The notes under the pieces: generated by a model
Database searches by the model: none
Told to the model about the DNA's origin: nothing
The model's input: the letters and a program-made list of their open reading frames with translations, nothing else
Source of the DNA: Magnetovibrio blakemorei
GTDB lineage: Bacteria > Pseudomonadota > Alphaproteobacteria > Rhodospirillales > Magnetovibrionaceae
Direction of reading: 5' to 3'
NCBI RefSeq assembly: GCF_001746755.1
Contig: NZ_MCGG01000014.1
Coordinates: 1-59,658, forward strand
DNA length: 59,658 nt
Shown: positions 10,045 to 33,258 of the stretch, piece by piece
How positions within the stretch are numbered: position 1 is the stretch's first letter
Layout of the letters: every line of letters begins with the position of its first letter
Program-made: the position numbers and the translations under genes

Positions 10045-10073
10045 TTGGACATATTAGATTGCCGTAATATAAA
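10045..10073 (+). promoter_or_regulatory. Strong sigma-70 type promoter of the dsr operon
   Basis: TTGGAC at 10045-10050 and TATAAA at 10068-10073 are separated by exactly 17 bp. Transcription would begin near 10080, leaving about 285 nt of untranslated leader before dsrA. This is the best promoter match in the window. Confidence 0.6.
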
Positions 10074-10079
10074 ATCCAT

Positions 10080-10364
10080 CGAAATAACGAACAAATGCGT
10101 GGAGACACGCACACGAACTTACAAAAAATATAATTGTGAGACGTGCAAAAAAAGAACAGGCGTTGGCTGTACCGGGGGTTCGCCCTCACAGGCAAAACCG
10201 CTAACAGACGCGTCCTGGTGTGTCCCGATGGGACATACTGTTTTTTGGCTGGATTTCCAGCTTGGAAACGGGGGGACCTCTTTAAGCTCCTGAAGGTTCA
10301 GGAGTGGGGACCCTTTTTGTGTCCTTTTTGGGATCGAACGAACTCTGCGGAGGAATGAAAAAAA
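10080..10364 (+). ncRNA. Candidate structured 5' leader RNA of the dsr operon
   Basis: The predicted leader is unusually rich in perfect hairpins. They are TGCGTG-GAGA-CACGCA (10096-10111, a GNRA loop), GGG-TTCG-CCC (10176-10185, a UUCG loop), TGTCCC-GAT-GGGACA (10221-10235), GCTGG-ATTT-CCAGC (10248-10261) and CTCCTGA-AGGT-TCAGGAG (10287-10304). Longer-range pairs also exist: TGTGAG (10135-10140) with CTCACA (10185-10190), and AACAG (10203-10207) with CTGTT (10238-10242). A weak hairpin plus T5 (10308-10329) could terminate. GGACCT (10274-10279) can pair with AGGTTC (10294-10299), excluding the CTCCTGA stem. I know no riboswitch class it matches. The same DNA contains a 71-codon frame, so it could instead be coding. 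Confidence 0.4.
10143..10358 (+). CDS. Possible 71-aa leader-encoded protein (doubtful)
   Basis: An open frame begins at GTG 10143 and ends with TGA at 10356-10358, overlapping the dsrA ribosome site. The product would be basic and aromatic-rich, with CPDGTYC and LCPFWDR cysteine motifs that resemble a small metal-binding protein. Against it: no clear ribosome site precedes the GTG, the codons (many GGG, AGG, CGG, AGA, CGA) are unlike the neighbouring dsr genes, and the same stretch forms several perfect hairpins. I record it as the alternative to a structured RNA leader. Confidence 0.25.
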   Translation: MQKKNRRWLYRGFALTGKTANRRVLVCPDGTYCFLAGFPAWKRGDLFKLLKVQEWGPFLCPFWDRTNSAEE

Positions 10365-10368
10365 ATAG

Positions 10369-11619
10369 GCGACGAATAAACCAAATACTCCCAATCTCGA
10401 TCAGCTCGAAGCTGGCCCGTGGCCGAGCTTTGTTACGGGCCTTAAGCGCCTGGCTGACGATGAGGGTAAATCTTATGCTCCGATCATGAAGAGCCTGCTC
10501 GGTCAGCTTGAGCACTCCTATGAAACCCGTAAGGGTTATTGGAAAGGCGGCACCGTTGGTGTGCGTGGTTATGGCGCTGGCGTTATCCCTCGCTTCTCGG
10601 AAGTTGCCGATAAGTACAAGGAAAGCGCTGAGTTCCACACACTGCGCATCATGCCGCCGGCTGGCATGCACTACGACACTGGCACGCTGCGCAAAATGTG
10701 CGACGTGTGGGAAAAGTATGGCTCTGGCCTGATTGCTTTCCACGGCCAGTCTGGCGACATCATGTTCCAGGGCTGCTCCACCGAAAACGTCCAACCGGCT
10801 TTTGATGAGCTGAACGAAATGGGCTTCGATTTGGGTGGTGCCGGTGCAGGCGTGCGGACCTCGATGAGCTGCGTCGGCGCTTCGCGTTGCGAACACTCTT
10901 GCTACGACGAAGGCAAGGCCATGCGCATGGTCATCAACAACATGCTTGATGACATGCACCGTCCGAGCTTGCCGTACAAGTTCAAGGCAAAGTTCTCGGG
11001 CTGCGCCAACGATTGCGTCAACGCTTCGCACCGTTCAGATTTCGCCGTTTTGGGCACCTGGGCCGACGACATCAAAGTCGACCAAGCCAAGATCCAGGAA
11101 AAAGTTGCGGAAATGGGCCGCAAGGCGTTCAACGACCAAGTCGTGAACATGTGCCCGACCCGCGCGTTGTCCCTCAACGACGACGACACCTTGGACATCG
11201 ATAACGAAAGCTGCGTTCGTTGCATGCATTGCATCAACGTTTGCACCAAAGCGATGTCTCCGGGCGACGAAAAGGGTGTGACCATCCTGATGGGTGGCAA
11301 GCGCACGCTGAAGATCGGTGATCTGATGGGCACCGTGGTCGTTCCGTTCCACAAAATGGAAGATGAAGACGATTACGAGTGGTTGGTTGAACTGTCTGAA
11401 AACGTTCTCGACTTCTTCGCCGAAAACGCACTCGAACATGAGCGCACCGGTGAAATGATCGAGCGTATCGGCCTGGTCAACTTCCTGGAAGGTATCGACA
11501 TCGAAGTTGATCCCAACATGGTCAGCCATCCGCGCACCAGCTCTTATGTCCGTATGGACGGCTGGGACGAAGAAGTTGAAAAGTGGAACGCCCGCAAAGG
11601 CGCTGCAGCGGCCGAATAA
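10369..11619 (+). CDS. dsrA: Reverse-type dissimilatory sulfite reductase alpha subunit; start codon apparently disrupted
   Basis: The alpha subunit of DsrAB, which in sulfur oxidisers converts the reduced sulfur carried by DsrC to sulfite at a siroheme-[4Fe-4S] centre. Visible cofactor motifs are SCVGASRC and SGCANDC (siroheme/cluster cysteines) and a ferredoxin domain with CVRCMHCINVC. Homology clearly extends upstream of the first in-frame ATG (10486): TPNLDQLEAGPWPSFVTGL is the conserved DsrA N-terminus and runs back to 10369. There it meets TAG (10366-10368), and no ATG, GTG or TTG lies between. Removing A10367 would give ATG GCG ACG, with GGAGG upstream at 10349-10353. If ATG 10486 were used, about 39 conserved residues would be lost. 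First gene of the dsr operon. Confidence 0.93.
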   Translation, partial: ATNKPNTPNLDQLEAGPWPSFVTGLKRLADDEGKSYAPIMKSLLGQLEHSYETRKGYWKGGTVGVRGYGAGVIPRFSEVADKYKESAEFHTLRIMPPAGMHYDTGTLRKMCDVWEKYGSGLIAFHGQSGDIMFQGCSTENVQPAFDELNEMGFDLGGAGAGVRTSMSCVGASRCEHSCYDEGKAMRMVINNMLDDMHRPSLPYKFKAKFSGCANDCVNASHRSDFAVLGTWADDIKVDQAKIQEKVAEMGRKAFNDQVVNMCPTRALSLNDDDTLDIDNESCVRCMHCINVCTKAMSPGDEKGVTILMGGKRTLKIGDLMGTVVVPFHKMEDEDDYEWLVELSENVLDFFAENALEHERTGEMIERIGLVNFLEGIDIEVDPNMVSHPRTSSYVRMDGWDEEVEKWNARKGAAAAE

Positions 11620-20316: not shown

Positions 20317-21537
20317 ATGGCTGCAGATACGACCGTTTATAAAGAAATCGACGGCAAGGGCGGAGATTACTTTTCCCTGGTTGGTTGGCTGGGCCTGATG
20401 ATCGCTGCCGGATTGGCATCGGTTTATTACATGGAACATCACGGCCACATCGTGACCGGCATGACCAATGCCGTTGTCTGGGGCACGCCCCACGTCTTTG
20501 CGGTGTTTTTGATCGTTGCCGCATCCGGGGCACTGAACATTGCCTCCATTTCGTCTGTGTTTGGCAAGTACCACTACAAGCCCTTGGCGCGTCTGTCCGC
20601 GGTGACGGCAATCGCTTTGCTGGCTGGTGGATTGATGGTTCTGGTGTTGGATTTGGGTCGCCCCGATCGTTTGATCGTGGCGATGACCAAGTATAACTTC
20701 AAATCCATCTTTGCCTGGAACATCTACCTCTATACGGGCTTCTTTGTCATCGTCTTGGCCTACTTGTGGATGATGATGGAACGGCGCATGGTGCCTCATT
20801 CCAAAAAAGCAGGCTTGCTGGCTTTCGTGTGGCGCTTGGCGCTGACCACGGGTACCGGCTCGATCTTCGGCTTTTTGGTGGCGCGTCCCGGTTATGACGC
20901 GGCAATTATGGCGCCGATGTTCATCGCCATGTCGTTTTCCTTTGGCTTGGCGTTCTTCATCATTTTGGTGTCCGTCACCTATCGGGCATCAGGACGTCCT
21001 CTGGGCGATCTGATCTTGTTCAAGATGCGCAACCTTCTGGGTATCTTCATTGCGGCCGCCTTGTACTTCACCGTGGCGCAGCACCTGACCAACCTTTATG
21101 CCGCCGAACATGCGGGTATCGAAGCCTTTATCTTGATGGATGGTGGCATTTACACCTTCTTGTTCTGGGTTGTGCAAATTGGCCTGGGCAGCTTGTTCCC
21201 GTTGGCGTTGCTGTTTAATCCGGCTACCGGACGGCGCTGTCAGGGCATCATCGTGGCATCGCTGTTGGTGATCATCGGTGGCTTGGCGCAAATTTATGTG
21301 ATCATCATCGGCGGCCAAGCCTTCCCGATGCCCATTTTCCCGGGTATGGAAGTGAGTTCCAGCTTCTTTGACGGCGTGGTGCATTCTTATGCGCCCAGCT
21401 TGCCGGAAGTGGTTCTGGGCCTCAGCGGTGTGGCAACCACGCTGTTGATCATTGCTGTTGCGATCAAATACCTGCCATTGCTGCCGACCAGCTTGTCGGA
21501 CGCTAAGGTTGATCCGCACCACGCACCTAAAGACTAA
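20317..21537 (+). CDS. dsrP: DsrP, NrfD-like membrane subunit
   Basis: A 406-residue integral membrane protein of about ten TM helices, of the NrfD/PsrC type, that handles quinol in the DsrMKJOP complex. It starts at ATG 20317, immediately after dsrO. An internal motif, LDLGRPDRLIVAM, is characteristic of the family. It is the last gene before two tandem terminators, so it ends the main dsr transcript. Confidence 0.95.
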   Translation: MAADTTVYKEIDGKGGDYFSLVGWLGLMIAAGLASVYYMEHHGHIVTGMTNAVVWGTPHVFAVFLIVAASGALNIASISSVFGKYHYKPLARLSAVTAIALLAGGLMVLVLDLGRPDRLIVAMTKYNFKSIFAWNIYLYTGFFVIVLAYLWMMMERRMVPHSKKAGLLAFVWRLALTTGTGSIFGFLVARPGYDAAIMAPMFIAMSFSFGLAFFIILVSVTYRASGRPLGDLILFKMRNLLGIFIAAALYFTVAQHLTNLYAAEHAGIEAFILMDGGIYTFLFWVVQIGLGSLFPLALLFNPATGRRCQGIIVASLLVIIGGLAQIYVIIIGGQAFPMPIFPGMEVSSSFFDGVVHSYAPSLPEVVLGLSGVATTLLIIAVAIKYLPLLPTSLSDAKVDPHHAPKD

Positions 21538-21590: not shown

Positions 21591-21595
21591 CGGGG

Positions 21596-21634
21596 GGGGT
21601 CCAGGTCATAGTGCCTGGATCCCCTTTGCTTTTC
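21596..21634 (+). terminator. Second, tandem terminator hairpin
   Basis: GGGG-TCCAGG (21596-21605) pairs with CCTGGA-T-CCCC (21614-21624) with a single bulged T. TTTGCTTTT follows. This backs up the first terminator and suggests that the next gene block has its own promoter or depends on read-through. Confidence 0.65.
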
Positions 21635-21683
21635 AAATCCCCTGGTTTATTCTCAGCTCACTCATTTTTTGGATAGAGACACC

Positions 21684-24161: not shown

Positions 24162-24965
24162 ATGACTTTGAGTAAAGTTAAAGACAAATCTGATGGTGTC
24201 AGCGTGTTCATCGTAGGCGCTGGTCCGGGCGACCCCGGCCTGTTGACGTTGAAAGCTGCCGAATGCTTGAAAAAGGCCGACGTGGTGGTTTATGACCGAC
24301 TGGTATCGGATGATATTTTGGACATGGTGCCCGCCAGCGCCGAAAAGATTTTTGCAGGCAAAGCCGCGCGCGATCATTTTATGCCCCAAGACGAAATCAA
24401 TCAGACCTTGGTCGACTTGGCGCGCCTCGACAAAACCGTGGTGCGCCTTAAAGGCGGCGATCCGTTTATTTTTGGCCGCGGCAGCGAAGAAGCCATGTTC
24501 CTGGCCGAACACAACGTCAACTTTGAAATCGTTCCCGGCATTACAGCGAGTGCCGGATGTGGTGCCTACGCTGGCATCCCGCTCACCCATCGAGGCTACG
24601 TGACGGGCGTGCGCTTCGTCACCGGACATTGCCGCGAAGGTCAGCACTTGGACCTCAACTGGAAAAGCATGGCCGATCCCAACACCACGCTGGTGATCTA
24701 TATGGGGTTGATCAACGTACAGAAAATTTCCGACGAATTGATCAAGGCCGGACTGCCCGGCGACATGCCCGCCGCCGGGATCGAGCGCGGCACAACCCCG
24801 GACCAACGCACCATCCTCACCACCTTAAAAGATCTGCCCGCGTGCATTGATCGTGCAGACCTCAAAGCCCCTTCTTTGTTGATCATCGGTAAAGTGGTTG
24901 ACCTTGCCAGCACCATTGCCTGGCATACGCCCGCGCATGAGTGCCTGTTGGAGGAGGATGTCTAA
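24162..24965 (+). CDS. cobA: Uroporphyrinogen-III C-methyltransferase (SUMT)
   Basis: A 267-residue SAM-dependent enzyme making precorrin-2, the first step to siroheme. Family motifs are clear: VGAGPGDPGLLTLKA, VVYDRLVS, LKGGDPFIFGRGSEE, VPGITA and the LTHRGY segment. It is single-domain, without the CysG dehydrogenase/chelatase half, so oxidation of precorrin-2 must be done by another protein not seen here. The start is ambiguous: AAGGA ends 1 nt before ATG 24162 but sits 7 nt before TTG 24168. It overlaps the following chelatase gene by 8 bp. Confidence 0.93.
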   Translation: MTLSKVKDKSDGVSVFIVGAGPGDPGLLTLKAAECLKKADVVVYDRLVSDDILDMVPASAEKIFAGKAARDHFMPQDEINQTLVDLARLDKTVVRLKGGDPFIFGRGSEEAMFLAEHNVNFEIVPGITASAGCGAYAGIPLTHRGYVTGVRFVTGHCREGQHLDLNWKSMADPNTTLVIYMGLINVQKISDELIKAGLPGDMPAAGIERGTTPDQRTILTTLKDLPACIDRADLKAPSLLIIGKVVDLASTIAWHTPAHECLLEEDV

Positions 24966-25791
24966 GCCCCCTTCCCCAATCCTGGATTTGAGCCACACCG
25001 GGCTTTTGATCGCAGCGCACGGTTCTCCCAGCACCAAGGGAGGGCGTACTTCGTCGCGCAAACACGCCGAAACCATTCGCAATTTAGGGCTATTCGCCGA
25101 CGTGCGCGCGGGCTTTTTGACCGAAAAACCGTTCATCAAAGACGTTCTGGATGGCATCCATTTGCCAGAAGTTTATGTCGTGCCGAATTTGGCCTATCGA
25201 GGCTTCGTTTCAACCACCAAATTGCCCCAAGCCCTGAACCTTACGGGTGAGGTGACGGAACGCATAACGCCGAACGGCCATCAACGGGTGCACCTGTGCG
25301 ATCCTGTCGGCACCGACCCCAGCACGGCCAAAACCTTTGCCGTGCGCATTCTGTCTACCATGGACAGCTTAAAGGTCCCCGATACCGATACCGCTATCGT
25401 TGTCATCGGCCATGGATCGGGACGTGGTCGGGAATCGTTTGAACACACCAACCGCATCGCCCGCGACCTTTCGCGTTTTGGCATTATACCGCCGGTTTTC
25501 ACGACATTTTTGGAAGAACCGCCCTTCATTAAAAATTGGCGCGACCTGACCCGCGCCAAAAACGTGATCTTCGCGCCGTATTTGATTTCCGACGGATTTC
25601 ACGGTTCAGAAGAAGTGCCGCGCGACATCGGTTTCAACACCAAGTCCGAAATCTTCATTGAGCGTTTGTCTCATGTCCAGCCCAACGAAATGAACCAAGA
25701 CGGCCAGCGCTTGATCTATCTGCCGCCGCTCGGCGACGCGCCGGAAATGGCGGAACTGATCATCAACCGGGTGCGCGCTTCATTAACCTAA
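24958..25791 (+). CDS. CbiX/SirB-type sirohydrochlorin chelatase
   Basis: A 277-residue protein of the CbiX family that inserts Fe2+ (or Co2+) into sirohydrochlorin. Two half-domains are visible, each with a candidate metal-binding His: IAAHGSPS near the N-terminus and VIGHGSGRGR in the second half. A strong GGAGGAGG, itself inside the end of the SUMT gene, precedes the ATG. In this context iron chelation to give siroheme for DsrAB is most likely. Its 3' end overlaps the convergent EamA gene by 29 bp. Confidence 0.88.
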   Translation: MSKPPSPILDLSHTGLLIAAHGSPSTKGGRTSSRKHAETIRNLGLFADVRAGFLTEKPFIKDVLDGIHLPEVYVVPNLAYRGFVSTTKLPQALNLTGEVTERITPNGHQRVHLCDPVGTDPSTAKTFAVRILSTMDSLKVPDTDTAIVVIGHGSGRGRESFEHTNRIARDLSRFGIIPPVFTTFLEEPPFIKNWRDLTRAKNVIFAPYLISDGFHGSEEVPRDIGFNTKSEIFIERLSHVQPNEMNQDGQRLIYLPPLGDAPEMAELIINRVRASLT

Positions 25792-27911: not shown

Positions 27912-28999
27912 TGACGCGAGGCTTTTCCCTTTATCTTGATTTTTTACGCTTTGGCGCAGCGTTCGTCGTGCTCTTGTCGCATATCGCGTATCCGCGTTTC
28001 AGCGACGGACGGTGGCTATGGATTCGTGAGCTCAATTTGGGCAGCGATGCGGTGATCGTGTTTTTTGTACTTTCCGGGCTGGTGATCGCGCACGTCGCAA
28101 AACGCAAACACTGTGGCCTGGGGCCGTTCGCTTTTGATCGGATCACCCGGTTGGTTTCTGTCGCGTTGCCGGCGCTGGTGCTCGGCTATGGACTGGACCG
28201 TCTAGGCGCGCATTTGGCGCCTGCCATTTATGCCGGGTGGTATTACAACCCACTGCCCCTGTGGGAGATGCTGGTACGCGGTTTGAGCTTTTCCAGCGAG
28301 TGGACCGGCATGGCGACGCGGCTTGGGACCAACGGTCCGTTCTGGTCCCTCAGTTATGAGGCGGCCTATTATACGCTCTTCGCCGTTGCCTTCTATCTGC
28401 GGGGGGCTCGACGGGTGGTGTTGCTGCTGGCGGGCATGCTGCTCTTTGGCCTCAACATCTTGCTGTTGATGCCCGCATGGCTGATGGGCGTCGCCCTTCA
28501 CACGTGGATTGTGGGCGGGCGGCGGCCAAGTCGTTTCGTTTCTATGGGGCTAGCGGTGTTGCCCGTGATGGCATATGCCTTGGCGCTTTGGACAGATCTG
28601 CCGAGCATGCTTTCCCACATGACGGCGGGGCTTAACCACGCCCTCACCCTTCGCTTTTCCGATGAGTTTGTGTGGAATGGATGGCTCGGGCTCTTGGTGA
28701 CGCTCCACTTGGCCGGGATTGCGGGTTTGGCTTCAGGTAGCGTTGCACCACGCAGGGCTCAGGTGGGGCGGTGGTTGGCTGGCGGAAGTTTTTCCCTGTA
28801 CCTGGTCCATTATCCCGTCTTGCAATTTCTTGCGGTGCTGCCGCTGAAGTCAGGGCATGGGTGGTTGGAGGATGCCCTGCTGCTGGCTTTGACGCTGCTG
28901 ATTTGCTTCGTCTTTGCTGCGTTGTTCGAACGCCGTCTTCACACATGGCGAGCGATGCTGCGCTGGGGGTGGCAAAAAAAAGGGGGCGGAAACTGGTGA
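27908..28999 (+). CDS. Acyltransferase 3 (OafA/NodX-like) family membrane protein
   Basis: A 363-residue polytopic protein (about ten TM helices) of the acyltransferase-3 family. The N-terminal LDFLRFGAAFVVLLSH motif with its catalytic-type His, VFFVLSGLVI and FWSLSYE are characteristic. These enzymes O-acylate surface sugars, peptidoglycan or lipids. Translationally coupled to the desaturase gene by a 4-bp overlap. Its final codons lie within the terminator of the convergent coiled-coil gene. GGG and GGT codons are more frequent than in neighbouring genes. Confidence 0.88.
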   Translation: MMTRGFSLYLDFLRFGAAFVVLLSHIAYPRFSDGRWLWIRELNLGSDAVIVFFVLSGLVIAHVAKRKHCGLGPFAFDRITRLVSVALPALVLGYGLDRLGAHLAPAIYAGWYYNPLPLWEMLVRGLSFSSEWTGMATRLGTNGPFWSLSYEAAYYTLFAVAFYLRGARRVVLLLAGMLLFGLNILLLMPAWLMGVALHTWIVGGRRPSRFVSMGLAVLPVMAYALALWTDLPSMLSHMTAGLNHALTLRFSDEFVWNGWLGLLVTLHLAGIAGLASGSVAPRRAQVGRWLAGGSFSLYLVHYPVLQFLAVLPLKSGHGWLEDALLLALTLLICFVFAALFERRLHTWRAMLRWGWQKKGGGNW

Positions 29000-29010
29000 G
29001 TTTCCGCCCC
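28974..29010 (-). terminator. Rho-independent terminator of the coiled-coil gene
   Basis: A perfect 12-bp stem (GGGGCGGAAACT at 28983-28994 with AGTTTCCGCCCC at 28999-29010, loop of 4) is followed on the minus strand by eight T (28974-28981). It overlaps the stop codon of the convergent acyltransferase gene. A second stem, GGGTCCC/GGGACCC, lies at 29016-29037. Confidence 0.85.
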
Positions 29011-29079: not shown

Positions 29080-32000
29080 TTATAAATCGCGACCCAACGC
29101 CCTTGAAAGCACCATATACAATTTGCCCATGTCTGACGACAAGAACGTGTTTTCAAGGACCCCATCATGATCGCGTTCGCGCGCTTTGTCCATCATTGCG
29201 TTAAATTCGCTCACATAACGACCGACATAGTCGCGGAACTCCCCGTCTTCCTGATAAACAGACTTGATGGCCGCCAGGGTGTTTTTCTCTTTGAAACCCA
29301 ACATTTTGCGCACAAAAATGCCTTTTTCACCCTTATTGAAGCGCCGCCAATCGTCTTCGGTGATGGGCACTTCGGCAATGCGCGCCAAATCAACCGCAAG
29401 GGATTGCAGTTTTTCCGTGATGAAGGCCGCACGGCGCATAAAGTCTTCGCTGTGGGCCCGATCCAAAGTCGTATCCAGGGCTTGATTGAGCACTTCAGCC
29501 TGAGCCACGGCGCCCAACAGTCCACGGGTCTCTTGTTCGACCTTGTGACCAACGCTTTCCAACTGCCCTGCCACCGTCGCCGAAGCGCGGCTCAAATCGT
29601 CTACCCCATCGCGCAAGGTTTTGTCCCAAGCGACGATACGCGCCACGGACTGTTCGGTAACCGTGGCGACGTTGTGGCTCTGTTTTTCCAACGCATCGCC
29701 GAGCATGCTGGCACCTTGCTGCGCCCGGCTGTACATCCGGTTCAGCTCGTTCAACTGGCCCCGTGCACGATCGTGGGCCACTTCCATATGGGTAGAAACT
29801 TTTTCCACTTCCTTGACGCTGTCTTTGCTTTGGCGTTCGACTTGGTCCAAGAAGGCCCGGATTTTGGCCAAGCTGTCTTCGGTCAAACGCGCGATGCCTT
29901 CATTTTGCTCGCCCAAGGTATCGCCGACTTGGCTCAATTTCCCCAACGCTTCATCAGATACGGACGCCACTTCACGGCCCTGAGAACGCAGCGTTTCCGC
30001 GACACCTTCTATCTTGGTCGTGGCCTGCGACGAAGCCGTACTCAAATCTCCCAAATGCTGGCGCAAGTTTTCGCCGGCGCTGCCCAAATCCCGCACCGTG
30101 TGTTCCGAGATCCGCGACATTTCCCCGGCCGAGCGCTGAATGATGTCGCTGACGCGTTCCAATTCACCTGCAGCACGTTCCGATGCCGCCCCCAAATCGG
30201 ACGTTTGGTGGTGGAAAGCGTTGGTCACCAAGTCAATCAGCTTGGCGGCTTTATCGACCGATTGGTTGACGCCATGCACTTCTTCATTCAAGCGCGTTCC
30301 CACTTCACCCAGCTTTCCAGCCGCCCGGTCCGAGGCTTCCATCAAGCCGCTGGCTTGACGGTGCATGTCTTCGGAAAAGGTGCGGATGTGGCTGGACGCA
30401 CGGGTATACGACTGGGTCAAGTCTTCCGTGCGCCGCGACAGCAAGCTGCCTAAGTCCTCCAGGCGATCTCCGGCATGATCCAAGGCGTGATCCAAGTCGC
30501 TGGTGTGACGGCGGAAGGTATCGGAAATACCTTCCAAGCGATCCCCGGCCTGGGCCGTTGAACGGGTGGCTTCTTCGGCGCGTTCAACCAACCGCTTGCC
30601 GATGCTTTCCAAGTTGCGTTCCGCACTTTCAACGCGCTGAGAAACCGTTCTTTCACCATCGACCAGCGCACTGGTCACTTGACGCACTCGACTGACGGAT
30701 TCATCGGAAATGGATTGCAGGCTAAAGGCACTTTCTTTGAGCTTTTCGCCCGTGTCCAACAAACGATCTGTCGCCCGGGTGCCCAAGTCATCGAGTTCGC
30801 GGGCATGTTCTTTGATGGTGTCACCCATCACGTCGATGCGTTCGGCAGCCTGTTTTGACGCATCGGTCAGACCCGCGGTCTGGCGGTGCAAGGCATCGGA
30901 GACCAACGAAATCAAACGCGCAGCCCGATCCGATGCCGAGCCCACTTCACGCGAACGTTCCAGCAAGGCCGCCGTGGCTTTGTCCACGTCTTCAACCGCC
31001 GAAGAGGTCACCCGCGACACACTTTCGGTCTGGCCTTCCAAGGTGTTGCTGACATTTTCCAAACGCTGAGTGGCTTCGTCCGAACTTTCCATCAGATCGC
31101 TGAGGCTTTGGCGCACGGCTTCGCCCAGTTCGCGCAAATGTCCCTCGGCCCGCTCTGATGCGGTTTCCATCATATCGGTGCGCTGCTCAAGGTGTTCAGA
31201 CGCGGTCGTGACCAACTTGCCGGTGCGCGCCGCAACATAAACCATATGCTCGGTGCGCTTTTGCAATTCTTCGCTCACGCCGACCAACTTGTCGGAAGCC
31301 CTATCTGTGACGTTTTCCAACTGCCGCGCCCGCTCATGAACCGTTTCGCCCAGATTGACGATGGAACTGACCGCACCTTCGGAAACCCCCTTAAAGTCGA
31401 TCAGGTGGGTGCGGAACGCTTCGGTCACTTCTCCGGTGCGCTGTGACGACGCGTTGATGCCGTCCAATCCATCTTTCAACGCCCGCGTGGCGGTGGCGAT
31501 GGAGTTGACCCCGGAGAACGCACTGGACGAGATGCGCTGCGCCCCTTCTTCCATGATGCGGGTCGCTTCCGACAAGGCCAATTGCGCCTTTTCAGAGGTG
31601 CTGCCCAAATCCCCGGCGCCATCGTACAAGCGATTGGCAACACCATCGATACGCAGCAGGCTTTGCTCCGTCGCGTCTTTGATGTTTTGCGTTTGCAGTT
31701 TTAAGCTGTCCGCCGCATCCGACAGCCGCGCTTGAGAGTCATCGCCCGTTTTGCCCAGTTCATCCGCCCGCGCCTGCAACGACTTACCCACCGTTTCCAC
31801 TTGATCCAAGGCTTTGGCGGAAATCAGGCTTAAGTCGAGCGAGGTTTTGCGCAACAATTCACGCACTTGACCGGAATGCTCCGTCGCCGTTTGTGCAGAG
31901 CTTGCCAAGGCCCGCGCTTCCGTCTGGAAGGCTTCGCCCGCCGCTTTCATCCGCAACGCCACCAAGTCCGATGCCGCGACCAGTTCGTGCGCATTTTCGC

Positions 32001-33258
32001 CCATGGTCTCGGTCATGGATTTGACCCGTGCAGACACGATTTCGGCGGTGTCATTCAAAGCCTGGGTCTGGCGCATCAAGTGGCCTTCAACCTCATGCGC
32101 TTGGGACGCGGCATCCAGAACCGCACGTTCCATATCCGACTGTTGACGACGCAGGGCTTCACCGACCCGCTGGGTTTGTGCTTCCATGCGGTCTGCGCGC
32201 GCGCCCACTTCGGCACTGGTTCCCGCCATCAATTCGGAGCCCGTTTCCAGGCGTTGCACGGCCTCTTGGGTTGCGGTGTTCATCGCCATGATGCGCGTCG
32301 ACAAAATTTCGCCAACCGTTTCCGCCCGCCCCGCCGTTTCCGCCGAAATGCGCGCCATATCTTCGCTGCGTTGACCAAAGGTCTCGGCGACTTCAAGGGC
32401 GTGACGTGATCCCACTTCGGAAACGTCCGCCAAGTCTTGAATGCGCCGTTCCAAGATTTCGACCAAGTCTTCGGCGCGGGTGCTGGCGCGGTCTGTTGCC
32501 GTGGCGATGTCGTGGCCACGACGATGCAAAACGTCACCCACGTCCCGGGCGCGGCTCTCGGCCTTTTCCGAAACCACCCGCAATTCTTCGGTTTCGCGCG
32601 ACAAAGCATCGGCCACCGCACGGGCGCGCAAGTCGGCATCTTGGGACACCCGCGCCAATTCCAAGGCGCGTTCGCGGACCTGGTTGGTGATGGCTTCGCC
32701 ACGTTGGTAGGCTTCATCAGATGCTTTGCTTAAGTCTTGGGCTTGGCGACGCAGGCTATCGCTGATTTCCTTGACCCGGCTTTCGGATCGATCCGTGGGA
32801 TAGGTCAGCTGGCGGATTTGCCAACGCAAATGCCCCGTCTCGGCGCGCAGGGAATGACCGCGCTCAAACAGCGCAATCACCATCCACAACAAGGCGATCG
32901 GGGTAAAGATACCCGCTGCCAAACCTCCCAGTTCATGGGGCAGAAGCTCAAACAGCACATCCCAACCGACATATTGGCCGATATAGCTGTTGGTCAACCA
33001 CAGCCATCCGCCCGTAGCGAAGATGCCCACCGCGGTGGCCAACTTGTAACGCAGATAAAACGGCTGATTCCAGGTGTCATACTCAATTTGCGACGGGGTG
33101 TTTTCAGCCCCTTCCGGCCCAATTTCGCCAAAGGCATCGTCAAGTTCCCGCTCAAGCGCGTCTGCAGGCGCGCCTTCACCGTTTTGCTGATGGGTTGGTG
33201 TTTTGACCATATCTGTGCGAACCGCCAATCTGTACGAACCGGGGAGGGTTATGGACAC
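29080..33258 (-). CDS. Giant two-TM coiled-coil protein with 43 units of a 25-residue repeat (polar-organiser-like architecture)
   Basis: A 1392-residue protein from GTG 33258. ATG 33210 (residue 17) is an equally or more likely start because a promoter at 33272-33299 would leave almost no leader before the GTG. Two TM helices (about 73-91 and 111-131) are followed by a helical rod at residues 170-1240. I could divide this by eye into 43 consecutive units, 42 of exactly 25 residues and one of 21. The consensus is roughly xRxxxDLxxASxxAxxRLxxVGxxL. A non-repetitive 152-residue C-terminal domain follows (DDWRRFNKGEKGIFVRKML ... SDMGKLYMVLSRAL). The layout resembles alphaproteobacterial pole or growth-zone organisers such as TipN and GPR; I have not established homology. 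It is a single-gene unit. Confidence 0.85.
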   Translation of the reverse strand: MSITLPGSYRLAVRTDMVKTPTHQQNGEGAPADALERELDDAFGEIGPEGAENTPSQIEYDTWNQPFYLRYKLATAVGIFATGGWLWLTNSYIGQYVGWDVLFELLPHELGGLAAGIFTPIALLWMVIALFERGHSLRAETGHLRWQIRQLTYPTDRSESRVKEISDSLRRQAQDLSKASDEAYQRGEAITNQVRERALELARVSQDADLRARAVADALSRETEELRVVSEKAESRARDVGDVLHRRGHDIATATDRASTRAEDLVEILERRIQDLADVSEVGSRHALEVAETFGQRSEDMARISAETAGRAETVGEILSTRIMAMNTATQEAVQRLETGSELMAGTSAEVGARADRMEAQTQRVGEALRRQQSDMERAVLDAASQAHEVEGHLMRQTQALNDTAEIVSARVKSMTETMGENAHELVAASDLVALRMKAAGEAFQTEARALASSAQTATEHSGQVRELLRKTSLDLSLISAKALDQVETVGKSLQARADELGKTGDDSQARLSDAADSLKLQTQNIKDATEQSLLRIDGVANRLYDGAGDLGSTSEKAQLALSEATRIMEEGAQRISSSAFSGVNSIATATRALKDGLDGINASSQRTGEVTEAFRTHLIDFKGVSEGAVSSIVNLGETVHERARQLENVTDRASDKLVGVSEELQKRTEHMVYVAARTGKLVTTASEHLEQRTDMMETASERAEGHLRELGEAVRQSLSDLMESSDEATQRLENVSNTLEGQTESVSRVTSSAVEDVDKATAALLERSREVGSASDRAARLISLVSDALHRQTAGLTDASKQAAERIDVMGDTIKEHARELDDLGTRATDRLLDTGEKLKESAFSLQSISDESVSRVRQVTSALVDGERTVSQRVESAERNLESIGKRLVERAEEATRSTAQAGDRLEGISDTFRRHTSDLDHALDHAGDRLEDLGSLLSRRTEDLTQSYTRASSHIRTFSEDMHRQASGLMEASDRAAGKLGEVGTRLNEEVHGVNQSVDKAAKLIDLVTNAFHHQTSDLGAASERAAGELERVSDIIQRSAGEMSRISEHTVRDLGSAGENLRQHLGDLSTASSQATTKIEGVAETLRSQGREVASVSDEALGKLSQVGDTLGEQNEGIARLTEDSLAKIRAFLDQVERQSKDSVKEVEKVSTHMEVAHDRARGQLNELNRMYSRAQQGASMLGDALEKQSHNVATVTEQSVARIVAWDKTLRDGVDDLSRASATVAGQLESVGHKVEQETRGLLGAVAQAEVLNQALDTTLDRAHSEDFMRRAAFITEKLQSLAVDLARIAEVPITEDDWRRFNKGEKGIFVRKMLGFKEKNTLAAIKSVYQEDGEFRDYVGRYVSEFNAMMDKARERDHDGVLENTFLSSDMGKLYMVLSRALGRDL
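29539..32751 (-). repeat. Coding array of 75-bp units (25-residue coiled-coil repeat)
   Basis: The 43 protein units described for the coiled-coil gene occupy this stretch with 75-bp spacing and one 63-bp unit (the 19th). The DNA copies are strongly diverged, so the periodicity is conserved at the protein level only. Confidence 0.8.

Follow-up and report, generated by a model that had tools for sequence, protein, structure and literature searches.

A conserved, structured candidate leader RNA ahead of the dsr operon of Magnetovibrio blakemorei and its possible role in transcription attenuation

The dsr operon of Magnetovibrio blakemorei MV-1 (3,638,804 bases in 91 contigs) appears to open with a new, conserved and structured cis-acting leader RNA, as supported by covariation within the leader, by its fixed position before the same gene, dsrA, and by the promoter that accompanies it. 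The window analyzed here is a stretch of 59,658 nucleotides (contig NZ_MCGG01000014.1), and all positions refer to it. In the window, dsrA is the first gene of a long operon, which we take from frame reading to be dsrABEFHCMKLJOPN with two siroheme-type genes at its end. Seven aligned leaders share a conserved structure, terminator-like hairpins that are likewise conserved and an overlap of three helices, and we see roughly even chances that the leader works as a transcription attenuator of the operon. The features are as follows.

10045 to 10074, + strand: promoter TTGGAC-17-TATAAA, kept in relatives, with a predicted start at about 10080
10051 to 10070, + strand: dyad ATATTA-N8-TAATAT between the −35 and −10 elements, a candidate operator
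10097 to 10110, + strand: H1, a 5-bp hairpin with a GNRA loop (GAGA here), with double changes in 4 of 5 pairs
10112 to 10145, + strand: H2, a bulged hairpin, with 6 double-change pairs in its lower and upper parts together
10156 to 10217, + strand: H3 domain, the candidate sensor, with many invariant bases; its covariance model, R1, picks up 3 relatives that had been held out
10207 to 10224, + strand: antiterminator candidate GACGCG-UCCUGG-UGUGUC, mutually exclusive with both H3 and H4
10217 to 10246, + strand: H4, a hairpin plus T6 resembling an intrinsic terminator, by its terminator score, with two double-change pairs
10240 to 10269, + strand: H5, GUUUUUU/GGAAAC with an inner GCUGG/CCAGC that has one double-change pair
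10272 to 10318, + strand: H6, a second terminator-like hairpin with T5, in which the upper stem alone covaries
10316 to 10342, + strand: H7, a U-rich hairpin immediately 5' of the ribosome site, conserved and with one-sided changes
10343 to 10354, + strand: H8, a candidate hairpin CUC-UGCG-GAG holding the Shine-Dalgarno sequence GGAGGA, invariant in 8 leaders
10366 to 11619, + strand: dsrA, with TAG at 10366-10368 in the position taken by ATG in 24 of 29 other dsrA loci

The 285-nt leader folds at −105 kcal/mol (z = −5.4); 200 dinucleotide shuffles gave −79.4 ± 4.8 kcal/mol and never reached so low a value. Seven close relatives (L003 to L009) align with the window from the promoter through the ribosome site, and their base changes preserve the stems. 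In a consensus-fold test on seven leaders (the window and six relatives), aligned by MAFFT without guidance, the consensus energy was −77.6 versus −25.2 ± 4.4 in 100 column shuffles (z = −11.9); control folds gave z = −2.2 for the initial 300 nt of dsrA and z = −5.8 for the antisense strand. The leader of G003 (L004) was excluded from this alignment and test because its 5' part has a tandem insertion, and L010 to L014, which align poorly, were for that reason not used in the covariation counts. RNAalifold returned 75 pairs, 19 of them with compensated changes, and a hand-chosen structure of 76 pairs was paired in 93.9% of cells, with double changes in 16 pairs (26 cells); slid partners gave at most 6 pairs and 7 cells, and none of 500 shuffles reached either count. 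One of the five measures, the number of further pair types, was not above the shuffles (42 versus 40.0; 118 of 500 shuffles were at least as high). When leaders were aligned by hand, 3 to 8 for each helix, each helix's own strands paired in 376 cells, compared with a mean of 350 and a maximum of 365 in 20,000 trials with permuted strands, a test that leans toward the author's choice of strands; lower H2 was represented by 5, upper H2 by 3 and inner H5 by 7 of the 8 leaders, as the remaining rows could not be lined up and were dropped. The helices of the hand test and the 76-pair structure were picked by hand from folds of these sequences, whereas the column-shuffle test was not subject to such a choice.

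By their energies and 16 double-change pairs, these folds bear out an earlier note, made from the sequence alone, which had described a long structured leader before the dsr operon, and the perfect hairpins named there do exist. That note had also considered conservation following the codons of a 71-codon frame; among the longest frames of the leaders, which this comparison covered, the window has 71 codons and the other seven leaders have 21 to 45, so neither such conservation nor a short conserved reading frame of the kind expected of a peptide-coding leader attenuator was found. On the antisense strand, the longest stop-free runs differ among relatives and frames.

The strong promoter that had been placed 285 nt before dsrA was found as TTGGAC (10045-10050), a 17-nt spacer and TATAAA (10068-10073), and it is kept among the aligned relatives. 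A match to a sigma-70-type scan at 10046-10075 overlaps it (0.8 such matches expected in shuffles), and the block TTGGACATATTAGATT is present in each of the eight aligned relatives, with one base differing in G001. The dyad within the promoter, a candidate operator of some regulator, was searched for as the 22-letter pattern CATATTAGATT-N4-TAATATA; with up to 3 mismatches, it occurs in 27 of 97 dsrA upstream regions including the window, a count that is not one of independent cases because the regions are related sequences, and in none of 291 shuffles. A slightly shorter pattern with at most 1 mismatch was matched in 55 of 317 genomes of the order, and half of the fetched loci (15 of 30) hold dsrA. 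The dyad is conserved before dsrA across several Rhodospirillales families and, with 3 mismatches, is also seen in two loci outside the order (L083 and L096). A dyad regulon in the MV-1 genome itself was considered and rejected: two near matches (L113 and L114) adjoin frames unlike sulfur genes, and one of them, on contig C15, matches a 21-letter pattern with zero mismatches, and the dyad is therefore not confined to dsrA.

Downstream of the leader, the true frame of dsrA runs from 10369, with its first in-frame ATG at 10486. When the 29 other dsrA loci were lined up, the start codon stood at the place of the TAG in the 24 already mentioned and one codon later in 2, and none was found there in 3 (L022, L024 and L026). 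The TAG of MV-1 comes with an extra A adjoining an A run, and errors of this kind are typical of 454 reads. As the MV-1 draft was obtained mainly from such reads (PMC5122692), the in-frame TAG is probably a sequencing error rather than the mark of a lost gene.

Along the leader, the loop of H1 is GNRA in 8 of 8 leaders while its stem varies. Of the two stable tetraloops pointed out earlier, the GAGA loop is thus upheld by conservation, and the UUCG loop belongs to this sequence only, other loops taking its place elsewhere. H2 is peripheral; its upper part is paired in 81.6% of cells, and by reading, the 5' part of the G003 leader carries tandem copies of an H2-like hairpin. H3 comprises a CAGG..CCUG closing helix, a CUGU/ACAG helix, a GGGG/CCUC hairpin and a less certain GGC/GCU hairpin, and it is weakly backed by covariation, with zero double changes in the tool count and four positions in the hand alignment. 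The hairpin of H4 occupies 10217-10240, and in the leaders a run of 5 to 7 T starts one or two bases after it. H5 pairs this T tract with GGAAAC and could explain a conserved T tract without termination. H6 has a base GGG-GA-CC/GG-GA-CCC and a covarying 7-bp upper stem, followed by 4 to 6 T across the leaders. H7 and H8 are free of double changes, and an H8-like sequence occurs in 15 of 93 distinct dsrA upstream regions, being more widely conserved than the rest of the leader.

Terminators were scored by the formula of d'Aubenton Carafa. As predicted from sequence, H4 scores positive in 6 of 8 leaders (13.9 in the window) and H6 in 2 of 8 (2.8 in the window), so that one or the other is positive in 7 of 8 leaders versus none of 60 mononucleotide shuffles; the H4 score is negative in G001 (−3.4) and G002 (−8.8). 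No positive terminator was found in five leaders from more distant family members or in 15 from the dyad loci, three of which are again family members. On the + strand between 9991 and 34600, H4, H6 and 21595-21624 alone have positive scores, and the last of these lies inside the operon, between a frame ending at 21537 and one starting at 21669. The minus strand also has a terminator-like hairpin of very high score (42.8), with T8, at 28982-29010, just beyond the minus-strand frame 29080-33258.

Attenuators and terminator riboswitches are built in the order of sensor strand, antiterminator and terminator. In the leader, GACRCG is part of the 3' side of H3 and UGUGUC lies in the 5' arm of H4, and the same order is therefore present, with GACRCG/UGUGUC as the candidate alternative pairing. 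This pairing holds in 40 of 41 cells in seven leaders with zero double changes, a result that the shuffle control cannot separate from invariance. In G003, outside the seven-leader alignment, a change keeps H4 and breaks the antiterminator, leaving 4 of 6 pairs by hand reading. The sensing domain plus expression platform proposed earlier thus survives as a structured leader and not in its named platform, for which H4 and GACRCG/UGUGUC are the likelier candidates; H4 with its T6, the main terminator-like hairpin, was not among the hairpins named at the time. Of the two mutually exclusive helices then put forward, CTCCTGA/TCAGGAG holds, with three double-change pairs, and GGACCT/AGGTTC is not supported as a switch because it is paired in 75.6% of cells without a double change and, by reading, is lost in G008.

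We infer from this arrangement a transcript, a termination step, a direction of switching and a signal, which would fit together as follows. RNA polymerase would start near 10080, and the H3 domain would fold first and could hold the strand GACRCG. With GACRCG so held, UGUGUC would be free, H4 would build, and H4 with T6, followed by H6 with T5, would stop transcription before dsrA. When H3 does not hold it, GACRCG would pair with UGUGUC as an antiterminator, H4 would be blocked and the operon would be read. Some signal, whether a metabolite, a protein or another factor, would stabilize or open H3.

In a search of 60 genomes including that of MV-1, a dsrA-level match (E of 5e-199 or lower) was found in 35; one match search was limited to the best 80 of its 574 matches. 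The model R1, built from 5 leaders, was run against 90 of 118 loci (leaving out L002, the repeats L032 to L040, L101 to L111, and L112 to L118). It recovered the three close relatives that had been held out, with E values of 1e-13, 3e-10 and 4e-8, as well as four more distant family members (L011 to L014), whose matches (E values of 4e-4 to 0.9) lie at the corresponding position before dsrA. Outside the family, R1 matched no dsrA leader among the 90 loci, and its matches in L093 (E = 0.0044), L077, L063 and L046 were set aside because they fall elsewhere than in the leader. Chance can give a value of 0.004, as seen in L093, and the leader matches of L012, L013 and L014 (0.028, 0.17 and 0.86) are therefore carried by their position. 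In 18 family genomes including that of MV-1, with 150 candidates scored in most genomes, R1 gave 8 matches below 1e-6 and a further one, at 0.002, in G009, and every one of them lies before dsrA; G013 and G011 matched weakly before dsrA, G006, G010 and G014 weakly and only elsewhere, and G012, G015, G016 and G017 gave no match. Since G006, G010, G012 and G015 carry dsrA, not every dsrA-bearing member of the family has the fold. Further possible copies away from dsrA in family genomes (E of 0.17 to 0.92) were taken as chance.

In other families of the order, the leaders behind the dyad are about 250 to 400 nt long and differ from that of the window. Fold tests gave z = −2.5 for five leaders of one family and z = −4.3 for three leaders of other families; a single fold shared across families was rejected, the joint alignment of eight leaders giving z = −0.7. 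A different dsr leader, found in L135 to L139 and L143 from two other families, has at its start a covarying pseudoknot in which a hairpin loop pairs downstream. All 36 cells of its second helix are paired, compared with 0.85 when swapped (6 hand-picked leaders from the two families).

Several other explanations bear on these features. That the leader is an ordinary intergenic or coding stretch folded by chance is extremely improbable, as the single 71-codon frame is all that was found in its favor, that frame is not conserved, and the compensatory changes contradict chance folding. A structured 5' untranslated region that stabilizes an abundant transcript or gates ribosome access through H8, without attenuation, would account for the GNRA-capped 5' hairpin, for H7 and H8 set against the ribosome site, and for the conservation of the H8 sequence (15 of 93) beyond the rest of the leader; as it leaves both the conserved hairpins with T tracts in the 8 close leaders and the invariant H3 bases unexplained, we consider it unlikely. 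Quite unlikely, in our judgment, is a leader read by a protein, in which an RNA-binding or processive antitermination factor lets RNA polymerase pass terminators and the long operon. The two terminator-like hairpins in the leader and the one at 21595-21624 would suit such a factor, as would a second NusG-type protein in the genome, but the frame of that protein is on another contig, with no dsr gene within the 3.3 kb read around it, and no RNA family was matched in Rfam. The second NusG-type protein is located at G000:C30:4562-4849 (L160), besides one on C51.

A strict small-molecule riboswitch, in which an H3 aptamer binds a sulfur or siroheme metabolite and sets the attenuator, seems doubtful to us. 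Many H3 bases are invariant in a way that covariation does not explain, the overlap of sensor strand, antiterminator and terminator resembles that of known switches, and frames read as a siroheme-type methyltransferase and a CbiX-like protein close the operon (24162-25791). Against this, strong matches occur before dsrA alone and in part of one family, whereas known riboswitch classes are usually wider in distribution. A ligand related to siroheme, sulfide or persulfide would fit, the neighboring genes being the sole basis for this idea. Returning to the attenuator, we tentatively suggest, as a possibility below even chances, that it may represent a new class of RNA switch gating reverse dissimilatory sulfite reductase, and that it may be part of a wider set of folded, fast-evolving leaders of dsr operons in Rhodospirillales, with a promoter dyad in common but different folds, one of them a covarying pseudoknot.

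The earlier note had recognized no known RNA class, and a search of 4,227 Rfam families agrees, with no match above the gathering threshold in the window and 20 related loci; at E values up to 10, there were only three matches, all far below the gathering scores. A literature search turned up no dsr leader RNA in titles or abstract openings among the matches listed, in which subscription papers are thinly covered. Intrinsic-terminator riboswitches and leader attenuators consist of a promoter, a folded domain, an overlapping antiterminator and terminator, and then the operon. The leader has the same layout from promoter to operon, but it matches no Rfam family, and strong matches to it come from a single gene's upstream region in part of one family. 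The put and EAR elements are leader RNAs of processive antitermination and, like the dsr leader, are folded RNAs that open a long operon with terminator-like signals; the dsr leader differs in having no Rfam match and no dedicated factor gene recognized among the dsr frames read. If true, an RNA gate that is conserved and belongs to a cultivated magnetotactic strain would open an RNA-level sensor of sulfur state to direct tests, and the other long dsr leaders in the order could be studied in the same way. In Allochromatium vinosum, the same dsr genes are regulated (Grimm et al. 2010, as cited in PMC3397948), and no leader RNA appears among the literature matches listed. Sensing for the Dsr pathway is described, in the sources considered, for DNA-binding repressors of other sulfur genes. 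The sulfane-sulfur repressors SoxR and sHdrR provide alphaproteobacterial control of sulfur oxidation genes at the DNA level, and the dyad at 10051-10070 could be an operator of the SoxR/sHdrR type; SoxR and sHdrR act as proteins on DNA, whereas the dsr leader would act as RNA (PMC10451225, PMC12423496).
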